In this document: one piece after another, positions 57,921 to 60,340 of the stretch
Position numbering within the stretch: the stretch's first letter is position 1
Layout: each line of letters starts with the position of its first letter
DNA from: Acidimicrobiales bacterium
GTDB taxonomy: Bacteria > Actinomycetota > Acidimicrobiia > Acidimicrobiales > Iamiaceae
Assembly (NCBI GenBank): GCA_035547835.1
Contig: DASZTW010000015.1
Coordinates: 62,001-126,000 of the forward strand
DNA length: 64,000 bases
Direction of reading: 5' to 3'
Position numbers and translations under genes: made by a program
Notes under the pieces: model-generated
The model's input: only the letters and a program-made list of their open reading frames with translations
The model's database searches: none
What the model was told of the DNA's origin: nothing

Positions 57921-57934
57921 GGGTCGTTCGGCCC
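57921..57934. promoter_or_regulatory. DosR-box-like site, doxX side
   Basis: GGGTCGTTCGGCCC fits the spaced GGG...CCC dyad of the DosR box with mismatches in the inner bases. It lies 60 bases before the doxX start. Confidence 0.45.
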
Positions 57935-57953
57935 TGTTCCGCCGGCTGAAGGT

Positions 57954-57967
57954 CCCGAACGTTCGGG
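57954..57967. promoter_or_regulatory. 14-bp perfect palindrome between doxX and the PPOX gene
   Basis: CCCGAACGTTCGGG is fully self-complementary, with GGT in front (GGTCCCGAACG). It sits midway between the two divergent genes and may be a regulator site, DevR-related or not. Confidence 0.55.
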
Positions 57968-57989
57968 GCAGGATCGGGACCACAGGAAT

Positions 57990-58003
57990 GGGACCATCGG
58001 CCC
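57990..58003. promoter_or_regulatory. DosR-box-like site upstream of the PPOX gene
   Basis: GGGACCATCGGCCC has the GGGAC half and a GGCCC half in the correct 14-base frame. It ends 36 bases before ATG 58040. A further GGGACC is at 57976-57981. Confidence 0.6.
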
Positions 58004-58039
58004 TGCCGCATCGGCGCGGTCCTGGGCGATGATCGCCTC

Positions 58040-58702
58040 ATGGAGAACTTCGACCGAAACGGGTTGGTCGAACTGACTCGAGACGAGTGTTTCGAACTGC
58101 TGCACATCGGGCGCATCGGTCGTATCGCCGTCACGAGCGAGGGTCTGCCGACCATCTTGCCGGTGAACTACGGCCTTCTCGGCGACCAGATCGTGTTCAA
58201 GACCGGTCTCGGCGCGAAGGCGAAAGCCGCGATTCAGCATCAGGTGGTGGCCTTCGAGGTCGACCAGGTGGACGCCGAGGGCGCCGTTGGATGGAGTGTG
58301 TGCGTGGTGGGGATCGCCCAAGAGATCACGGACTTGCAGCGCCAGGCTGACATCGATGCACTGGGACTCCGGCCGCCCGTGCCTGCGGCGCGCTTGCGGT
58401 ACGTGTCGGTCAGCACCCAGATGGTGTCCGGTCGGCAGGCGCTGGCGTGGTGGTCGACCGACCCTCGCCACACCTCATCGCCCTACCGGCACCGACCACA
58501 TGACCTTGGTGCCGCGTGGTTGGCGGGGCTGGATGACGCACGTCCCACCGCGGTTCTCGGCTCTTCCAAGGAGGTTTCCGAGACCTCGACCTCCGATTCG
58601 ATCGTCTCTGGAACCGGTGCCAGCGACGTCGATCCCTCGGCCGTCGTCGTCGATCATGACGTCGAGTCGGCCGTCGTGCAGCGTGATCGCCACTTGCGCT
58701 GA
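58040..58702 (+). CDS. PPOX (split-barrel FMN-binding) flavoprotein
   Basis: A 220-residue protein. Residues 1 to about 140 are a pyridoxamine-5'-phosphate-oxidase-like split barrel ([48 protein letters not shown]). Mycobacterial relatives Rv0080 and Rv3129 belong to the DosR regulon. The last 75 residues are low-complexity, have no similarity and are antisense to devS over 228 bases, so the real stop may have been lost or a frameshift may be present. ATG 58040 has GATGAT (58028-58033) with T at -7. Confidence 0.8.
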
Positions 58703-59629
58703 CCGCGCGCCGGCGTGGCGCGCCACGTTGGTGAGGGCCTCGCGGACGACCGAGACGACATCGGCCTCGAGATCCTCGTCGATGGCGGTGTCGACAGCCC
58801 CGTCGAACCGGAGGCCCGCGGCGAAGCCGAGTGCCTCAGCGATCTCGTCGACCACGGAGCGGACCGCGCCACGAACGCCTTGCGCAGCCATCACCGCCGG
58901 CAGCATGCCGAAGATCGATGACCGGACCTCTCGGACCGTCTCGTCGAGGTCGATCACCGCCCGGTCGATCCGCTCGCGCACTTCGGCGCGCTCGGCGAGG
59001 CGGGAAGCGCCTTGGAGGCCGAGGCCGATCGTGAACAGGCGCTGGATCACCGTGTCGTGGAGGTCGCGGGCAATGCGTTCGCGGTCCTCCAGCAAGTCGA
59101 TTTCGCGTACCCGGGCGTGCAGCCGCGCGTTCTCGATGGCCACGCCGGCCGCGCCGGCCAGCGCGACCACCAGCTCCTCGTCGATGTCGGTGAAGCCCCC
59201 GCCATCGCGCTTCTCGGTGAGGTAGAGGTTTCCGTACACCTCGTCGCGCACGAACACCGGCACCCCGAGGAACGACCGCATGGGCGGGTGGTTCGGTGGG
59301 AAGCCACTGCTGTCAGGGTGTTCGGCCATGTCGGGAAGCCGGATCGGTTTCGGGTCGACGATCAAGAGTCCGAGGAGCCCTCGACCCGTGGGGTACTCGC
59401 CGATGGCCTTCACTTCCTCATCGGTCATGCCGACCGTGATGAAGTCCGACAGCTGGGTGTGATCGGGGCTGAGCACGCCGAGCGCGCCGTAGCGCGCATC
59501 GACCAGTTCGACGGCGACCTCGGTGATCCGGTGCAGCACCACCGTGAGGTCGAGTTCGGCCGTCGCGACGATGGCACGAAGCAGCTTGCGAAGTTGGCGT
59601 GGGCCCGCGTGGCCTTCGGAATTCGACAT
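58475..59629 (-). CDS. devS: DevS/DosS-like GAF sensor histidine kinase
   Basis: A 384-residue cytoplasmic kinase. One GAF domain (about 25-180) contains [20 protein letters not shown] and [18 protein letters not shown], closely like the GAF-A of mycobacterial DosS that holds heme; the heme histidine is probably conserved in this segment, but I cannot prove it. The HisKA_3 H-box is [15 protein letters not shown] and the ATPase has DDDGRGI and [13 protein letters not shown]. Mycobacterial DosS has two GAF domains; this has one. It lies 33 bases after devR on the same strand. Confidence 0.9.
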
Positions 59630-59662
59630 TGTCAGCTGCGATCCACCGTGGTCAGCACCGCC

Positions 59663-60340
59663 CTACCTTCGCTCGCGCCGCTCCGCGATGCGGGCCGCGT
59701 ACACCGCTGCCTCGGTGCGACGCTTCATGCCCATCTTGGCGAGCAGGTTCGAAACGTAGTTCTTCACTGTCTTTTCGGCGAGGAACATCTCGTCCGCGAT
59801 CTGCCGGTTGGTGAGCCCTTGCGCGAGCAACTCGAGGATTCGAGCCTCTTGCGGTGTGAGGTTGGCCAGCCGTTCGTCCTGCTCTGGCCCCTTGCGCAGC
59901 CGCTCGAGCACCCGGTTGGTCATCACGGGGTCGAGCAGCGACTCGCCGGCGGCGACCCGTCGAACGCTGCCCACCAGGTCGTTCCCCAACACCTGCTTGA
60001 GCACGTAGCCCGATGCGCCGGCCAAGATGCTGTTGAACAGCGCTTCGTCCTCGGCGAACGAGGTGAACATGAGGCAGCGGATCTCGGGGTGGGTCGAGCG
60101 GATCTCGCGACACACCTCGATGCCGGTCCCATCGGGCAGCTGGACGTCGAGCAACGCCACGTCGGGGCGGACCGCAGGGATGCGACGCAGCGCCTGCTCG
60201 GCAGTGGATGCCTCGCCGACCACCTCGATGCCATCTTCGGTCTCGAACAGCTCGCGCAGTCCGCGGATGACGATCTCGTGGTCATCGAGGAGGAACACCC
60301 GAATCGGCACGGTCGTGGCCTCCGCTCCGGTCGACGCCAT
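59663..60340 (-). CDS. devR: DevR/DosR-like NarL-family response regulator
   Basis: A 225-residue regulator. The receiver has LLDDHE, phospho-Asp65 in VALLDVQLPDGTG and the SGYVLK switch. The HTH segment LTNRQIADEMFLAEKTVKNY is nearly that of mycobacterial DosR, whose Lys and Asn there contact the GGGAC box; the following LLAKMGMKRRTEAAVYA matches too. ATG 60340 has CAGAAT (60347-60352) with T at -7. It is divergent from the DinB gene. It is expected to act on the boxes before hsp20, usp and doxX/PPOX. Confidence 0.93.
   Translation of the reverse strand: MASTGAEATTVPIRVFLLDDHEIVIRGLRELFETEDGIEVVGEASTAEQALRRIPAVRPDVALLDVQLPDGTGIEVCREIRSTHPEIRCLMFTSFAEDEALFNSILAGASGYVLKQVLGNDLVGSVRRVAAGESLLDPVMTNRVLERLRKGPEQDERLANLTPQEARILELLAQGLTNRQIADEMFLAEKTVKNYVSNLLAKMGMKRRTEAAVYAARIAERRERR

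Follow-up and report, generated by a model that had tools for sequence, protein, structure and literature searches.

A putative DosR-type two-component system with a one-GAF sensor, and its candidate promoters, in an Acidimicrobiales bacterium

The well-studied low-oxygen switch of Mycobacterium tuberculosis comprises the heme-GAF sensor kinases DosS and DosT and the response regulator DosR. The mycobacterial DosR target classes include CBS-domain proteins and P-type ATPases, both of which recur in the system described here. Heat-shock and universal stress proteins (Usp) are further mycobacterial target classes described in PMC5069765, and these are likewise shared. The closest published parallel is OsdK-OsdR of Streptomyces coelicolor, for which PMC5069765 gives predicted OsdR sites, among them AGGGACCTTCGGCCCC ahead of narG2 and of a usp gene, as well as predicted targets that include a PPOX gene and a usp gene that is cotranscribed with a zinc alcohol dehydrogenase gene. 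Here we analyse a devR-devS pair, and the sequence boxes that it may recognize, in a stretch of 64,000 nucleotides from an Acidimicrobiales bacterium of the Iamiaceae (assembly GCA_035547835.1, contig DASZTW010000015.1, hereafter C15; C15:62001-126000). This stretch, referred to as the window, has a G+C content of 71% and belongs to a genome of 3.70 Mb in 22 contigs that is 97% complete. A literature search pairing Acidimicrobi* with DosR gave no match, while pairing the term with DevR gave nothing on such a system among the titles listed. The data presented below indicate that the pair is of the DosT/DosS-DosR type, with a sensor that has one GAF domain, and that boxes resembling DosR sites precede hsp20 and a PPOX-family gene in the window and several genes elsewhere.

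The two genes are arranged head to tail on the minus strand, 33 bp apart, and may be cotranscribed. The upstream gene, devR (59663-60340), encodes a DosR/DevR-like response regulator of the NarL family with Response_reg (PF00072) and GerE (PF00196) domains in Pfam. The reading frame, taken from an internal ATG, carries the motif EKTVKNY. Among solved structures the top match of DevR is M. tuberculosis DevR (3c3w, E 7.5e-71), followed by VraR (2.6e-43). Residues Lys179, Lys182 and Asn183 of the DosR helix-turn-helix (HTH) read the bases of the target site. With the numbering offset taken from the 3c3w alignment, these residues correspond to K190, K193 and N194 of DevR, and D65 corresponds to DosR D54; D65 and the KTVKN stretch are invariant in 18 of 18 DevR relatives. 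DevR thus displays the features by which a DosR/DevR protein is recognized, namely a NarL-type receiver and a LuxR-type HTH that are closest to DosR, with the phospho-acceptor and the base-reading residues in place.

The downstream gene, devS (58475-59629), encodes a heme-type sensor histidine kinase of 384 amino acids in which a single GAF domain is followed by HisKA_3 and ATPase domains. The GAF domain aligns with GAF-A structures of DosT and DosS (2vzw, 2w3d and others, E 3e-49 to 1e-45). H114 and Y136 of DevS align to the proximal heme ligand His149 and the distal Tyr171 of DosS, respectively, the residue roles and the DosS numbering (63-210 construct with a GAMDP tag) being those given in PMC4082495. 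H114, Y136, G51 and H191 are invariant in all 25 DevS relatives. Gly51 occupies the position that is Glu87 in DosS and, as in DevS, glycine in DosT (G85); the review PMC4082495 links the DosT glycine with a stable oxygen complex, although the reason is disputed. In contrast to the mycobacterial sensors, which contain both GAF-A and GAF-B, DevS has one GAF domain. The preliminary description of this DNA had considered DevS a one-GAF sensor, and this view is upheld; the size is common in the order, as 22 of 25 distinct relatives (chosen at >42% identity and compared by length) are 363-416 amino acids long. Judged by sequence, DevR is closely related to mycobacterial DosR, as is the GAF domain of DevS to the heme-binding GAF of DosT/DosS, and DevS is predicted to work like DosT/DosS, but as a one-GAF form.

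In the 3.70 Mb genome the strict box pattern, GGGACNWWNGKCCC, matches 7 times on the forward and 4 times on the reverse strand; since palindromes are counted twice, these matches amount to 8 distinct places. The reversed pattern, which served as a control, has one forward and one reverse match. The places are C2:58538, C5:637525, C12:1515, C15:91550 (hsp20), C15:119990 (PPOX), C19:259089, C19:271182 and C19:275021; two of them lie in the window. All 8 are intergenic, while intergenic DNA makes up 9.3% of the 464 kb sampled (p about 6e-9); the intergenic share and the gene starts come from our own simple gene caller. A genome-wide scan, proposed in the preliminary description, therefore finds strict boxes above chance before several stress genes, as expected of a DosR regulon, and before metabolic genes as well. 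The term 'compact' in that description does not stand, as the 8 strict boxes are spread over five contigs (C2, C5, C12, C15 and C19); its coordinates for DevR with EKTVKNY and for four boxes all proved correct.

The two strict sites of the window precede hsp20 and the PPOX-family gene. The first of these genes (29009-29470, minus strand; PF00011, E 5.5e-19) is the only Hsp20-family gene in the genome, with one match at E <= 0.001. Its box (29550-29563) is a perfect dyad, GGGACCTTGGTCCC, as had been noted at the outset, and the low edge of the box lies 80 bases upstream of the ATG at 29470, again as first described. A putative -10 hexamer, CACCAT (29520-29525, minus strand), stands 24 bp past the box. 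The PPOX-family gene (58040-58702, plus strand) matches PF12900 over residues 14-132 (E 1.9e-22) and has 6eci and 3cp3 among its solved relatives. The box, GGGACCATCGGCCC (57990-58003, plus strand), starts 50 bp before the ATG, and the putative -10 hexamer GATGAT (58028-58033, plus strand) lies 24 bp past the box. The ATG begins 7 bases after the last base of GATGAT, and the PPOX mRNA is predicted to be leaderless. The PPOX frame continues without a stop after the domain and runs antisense for 228 bp into the 3′ end of devS (58475-58702), which may reflect an error in the assembly, a convergent overlap of the two genes or a long tail.

The distribution of the box was then compared across 99 genomes, this one included, grouped by the E value of their best DevS match: <1e-80 (37 genomes, with a near-full-length DevS), between 1e-80 and 1e-30 (15) and all others (47). 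Matches to the exact sequence GGGACCTTCGGCCC number 44 in the 37 DevS genomes, the present one among them, and 10 in the other 62, whereas the reversed control has 4 and 4; by genome, co-occurrence with DevS is significant (Fisher p 1.1e-4). The sequence was picked from devS regions, in which 10 of the 44 matches fall; when devS-region matches are set aside it is present in 17 of 37 DevS genomes versus 10 of 62 others (p 0.002). A looser pattern occurs 2.33 times per Mb in DevS genomes (control 0.83), 0.56 times (0.88) in the 47 genomes of the third group, and 0.19 times (0.89) in the 7 of these that have no DevS match at all.

Exact-box loci were examined one per genome in 29 of the 30 genomes with a match, the thirtieth being the present genome, and 21 of the 29 are intergenic. 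The genes just downstream of exact boxes include devR (4 loci), nirK-like genes (3) and, once each, PPOX, GNAT-CoA ligase and CBS genes. In upstream counts, genes with coding sequence upstream were skipped and a divergent box was scored for both genes. Within 22 devS regions an exact or one-mismatch box stands in the intergenic DNA ahead of 6 of 12 devR, 4 of 16 devS, 6 of 11 PPOX and 6 of 7 nirK-like genes (reversed control 2, 2, 0 and 3, respectively); for the other genes of these regions the figure is 33 of 189 (control 14). The boxes ahead of devR in several relatives lie at -49 to -133, and some Usp genes of relatives are also boxed. Of 10 close hsp20 orthologues, 7 have a box (exact or with one mismatch) in the upstream 200 bp, compared with 1 of 18 distant paralogues; 2 of the same 10 have a control match. 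In this count one orthologue (L195), whose box lies inside the gene (+13), was scored as a miss, and a gene with 39% identity and a box at -98 (L201) was placed in neither group.

The position of the box within the promoter region provides a further line of evidence. Measured from the predicted start codon, the commonest box start is -49/-50 (16 of 94, compared with 0 of 20 in the control). The core of a -10 hexamer, ANNNT, has its A exactly 24 bases past the box in 35 of 101 boxes of relatives, and within 23-25 bases in 47 of 101, while equal windows elsewhere give a mean of 7.1 and a maximum of 20; at the fixed distance the reversed control scores 2 of 20. In this genome ANNNT is found at the fixed distance in 7 of 15 cases (elsewhere mean 0.72, maximum 3). 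The spacing count drops one-mismatch boxes in which neither central base is A or T, and the PPOX gene of the window is outside the 15 cases because the gene caller misses it, making a spurious antisense call instead. Within the window the spacing is obeyed by hsp20, PPOX and doxX but not by usp. A box about 23 bp before a -10-like hexamer is expected of a class II activator. If transcription starts 7 bases past the hexamer the box centre would, in our own reading, lie near -42.5, and where 49-50 bases separate box start and codon the message would start with the codon itself and be leaderless. In M. tuberculosis promoters described in PMC3029386 the proximal DosR site overlaps the -35 region; the comparable observation here is the distance between box and -10-like hexamer, which fits in this genome, in relatives and in the second of two held-out sets but not in the first.

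Taken together, these data lead us to assign a probability of roughly 0.8 to the view that DevS and DevR form a two-component system of the DosT/DosS-DosR type that controls the boxed promoters. The likeness to M. tuberculosis extends to the regulator, the heme-GAF sensor and the box type. In the mechanism that we propose, the single GAF domain of DevS would bind heme through H114. The oxygen-bound sensor would hold its kinase off, and loss of oxygen, or binding of nitric oxide or carbon monoxide, would switch the kinase on, leading to phosphorylation of DevR at D65. Phospho-DevR would then bind GGGAC(N4)G[GT]CCC boxes centred near -42.5, where it would adjoin RNA polymerase positioned on a -10 element some 23 bp further on and so activate transcription in the class II manner. 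Targets in the window would be hsp20, PPOX, probably doxX and possibly usp; elsewhere they would include the nitrite-reductase-like gene, a second PPOX gene, the GNAT-CoA-ligase gene, a gene with a flavodoxin domain and the C5 island described below. For PPOX, the GNAT-CoA-ligase gene on C19 and a number of genes in relatives, the start codon coincides with the expected RNA start, and these targets may be leaderless.

Several results weigh against this reading. With up to 2 mismatches the loose pattern GGGACNNNNGTCCC has 34 matches in the window versus 97 expected from shuffles. Exact or one-mismatch boxes lie upstream of 13 of 204 random genes of this genome compared with 11 of 204 for the reversed control; as this is near background, one-mismatch sites alone prove nothing. 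The 200 bp upstream of devR (60341-60540) contain no box, the best match having 3 mismatches, in contrast to M. tuberculosis; autoregulation of devR, suggested by the boxes of several relatives, may here be absent or distant. The 15 genomes with a partial or weak DevS are enriched in the looser pattern (2.06 per Mb, control 0.77), and the genomes that lack DevS also have a different phylogenetic position and, in many cases, a different size. Held-out sites, drawn from among the looser-pattern places listed with exact-consensus sites left out, gave mixed results for the spacing. The first set comprised 40 sites in 10 genomes, of which 4 were DevS genomes with 17 of the sites. It provided no support, the spacing being present in 3 of 23 directions (elsewhere mean 2.0, maximum 4), to which the DevS genomes contributed 1 of 8 and the other genomes 2 of 15; intergenic sites of this set were also commoner outside DevS genomes (15 of 23) than within them (5 of 17). 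The second set, 40 sites from six DevS genomes, was chosen after the first had given no support; it displayed the spacing in 12 of 26 (elsewhere mean 2.4, maximum 6) and 25 of its 40 sites were intergenic. Pooled over DevS genomes the spacing is found in 13 of 34 (elsewhere mean 3.0, maximum 8), but the difference between DevS and other genomes (13 of 34 vs 2 of 15) is not significant (p 0.10). Counting of loose boxes in the window, where matches to GGGACNNNNGTCCC are depleted to about a third of the shuffle expectation, was rejected as carrying no signal.

The alternative that survives best, and which we regard as a serious contender though the less probable choice, accepts the boxes as DevR sites but excludes doxX and usp from the targets, such that PPOX alone is served by the boxes between doxX and PPOX and the match before usp arose by chance. 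The sites in question, at 30219 and 57921, are both 2-mismatch matches to GGGACNNNNGTCCC. The doxX gene (57229-57861, minus strand) encodes a DoxX-family membrane protein that scores just above the threshold (PF07681, E 7.2e-5, 23.8 bits with a cut-off of 23.6). A one-mismatch box, GGGTCGTTCGGCCC (57921-57934), lies 60 bp from its start and is also a possible second site for PPOX; the putative -10 hexamer GACGAT (57892-57897, minus strand) stands exactly 23 bp past this box in the doxX direction, which argues for doxX as a target. Conversely, doxX homologues are rare: a search of the 98 other genomes found them in 3, and neither of the two amenable to alignment has a box within 350 bp. Membership of doxX, as the preliminary description had it, is thus plausible but local to this genome, and unproven. 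The usp gene (29628-30140, minus strand; PF00582, E 9.6e-28) is preceded by a weak box, GAGGCCAAAGTCCC (30219-30232), which reads GGGACTTTGGCCTC in the gene direction and has one mismatch to GGGAC...G[GT]CCC. Its low edge lies 79 bases upstream of the ATG at 30140, as originally reported, but a -10-like hexamer is absent at the usual distance. Although a tandem Usp of this genome and some Usp genes of relatives are boxed, usp is the weakest of the claimed members and its place in the regulon is doubtful. The idea of a DosR-type regulon is well supported for hsp20 and PPOX, where the genome-wide, cross-genome and promoter-geometry comparisons agree that the boxes are real; the interpretation first put forward is thus supported in part.

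It is also conceivable, but improbable, that the boxes are real and read mainly by another NarL-family regulator, DevR being merely a neighbour. Other LuxR/NarL-like regulators are recognizable by sequence in the genome, for example beside another kinase at C5:24058, and the box enrichment in the 15 weak-DevS genomes fits such a view. Against it, boxes in relatives stand directly upstream of devR or devS, the DNA-reading residues of DevR are those of DosR, and the box sequence equals a predicted OsdR site. In addition, one of the weak-DevS genomes (G028, locus L114) has a DevR of 66% identity beside a kinase with a PAS-like N-terminus, as judged by eye, with an exact box between the two. Judging from this genome, the occurrence of the box seems to depend on DevR and not on the GAF sensor; in box-enriched genomes without a strong DevS, the box may accompany a DevR that works with other sensors, or a different regulator. 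The remaining alternative, that the window boxes are chance matches in a GC-rich genome and the gene set a coincidence, draws on the lack of over-representation of loose boxes in the window, the imperfect usp and 57921 sites and the near-background frequency of one-mismatch boxes in this genome, but is very improbable given the intergenic location of 8 of 8 strict sites, the boxed hsp20 orthologues, the spacing to the -10-like hexamer in this genome and the co-occurrence of the box with DevS, and is largely refuted for 29550 and 57990, although not for 30219.

Control of the boxed promoters by DevS and DevR would involve a wider set of genes outside the window. On C19 the boxed genes are a second PPOX gene, a GNAT-CoA-ligase fusion and a flavodoxin-domain gene. 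The box of the fusion gene stands between it and an upstream phosphoketolase gene; the latter was dropped as a target, its own box being absent within 400 bp (best match 2 mismatches). The box on C2 precedes a gene whose C-terminal part resembles copper nitrite reductases (3x1e, E 1.2e-49). The C5 island contains four intergenic exact or one-mismatch boxes, which precede a tandem Usp gene, a zinc alcohol dehydrogenase gene, a carbamoyltransferase run and a CBS run. The carbamoyltransferase run continues with amino-acid permease, PF04371 agmatine-deiminase-family and AAA_33 genes, and the CBS run comprises a CBS protein gene followed by genes for a cation P-type ATPase and an amino-acid kinase. 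The CBS protein matches Rv2626c structures weakly (E about 1e-5) and is not claimed as an Rv2626c orthologue. One-mismatch sites inside genes were not counted as targets, nor were the intergenic sites outside the strict pattern at C1:84137, C5:256988, C7:303771 and C8:167629.

Some neighbouring features are recorded here as observations in their own right. On C12, near the contig end, three boxes stand in a row (1491-1579 of locus L129), two of them with both half-sites free of mismatches, some 200-240 bp before a camelysin-like gene. CheB-domain, PAS/histidine-kinase and receiver-like genes adjoin the boxed second PPOX gene on C19 (L128:3394-8243), and a P-type ATPase gene encoding a C-terminal hemerythrin domain adjoins the boxed Usp-alcohol dehydrogenase cluster on C5 (L183:1917-4226).

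Comparison of this gene set with the described systems reveals both likenesses and differences. With OsdKR, as described in PMC5069765, the system shares the box core and, as boxed neighbours, Usp and zinc alcohol dehydrogenase genes. The consensus of the OsdR sites is AGGGCCGATCGGCCCT, whereas GGGACC is dominant here, and nitrate reductase in S. coelicolor contrasts with a nitrite-reductase-like gene in this genome. The presence of nitrite-reductase-like and carbamoyltransferase/agmatine-deiminase-family genes in boxed clusters is a difference from M. tuberculosis. A known system is extended to another branch; the additions concern the lineage, the one-GAF form, the candidate rule for spacing and the metabolic genes, while the kind of system is not new.

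A broader proposal, which we offer tentatively and consider unlikely in its full form, is that in this order the DosR switch governs an anaerobic-metabolism regulon, with a one-GAF, DosT-type (Gly51) sensor, leaderless class II promoters, energy-yielding anaerobic routes together with nitrite reduction, and chaperone and Usp companions, and that this might be nearer the ancestral role than mycobacterial dormancy. The routes in question are represented by carbamoyltransferase/agmatine-deiminase-family genes with an amino-acid kinase, and by the GNAT-CoA ligase beside phosphoketolase. The distance between box and -10 hexamer would, if it holds up, be a practical rule with which DosR-type targets could be predicted beyond the mycobacteria. 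These data carry a well-studied low-oxygen switch into another actinobacterial order and result in a concrete list of promoters, the gene content of which suggests a wider role in anaerobic metabolism rather than in host persistence, and so bears on the evolution of the mycobacterial version.

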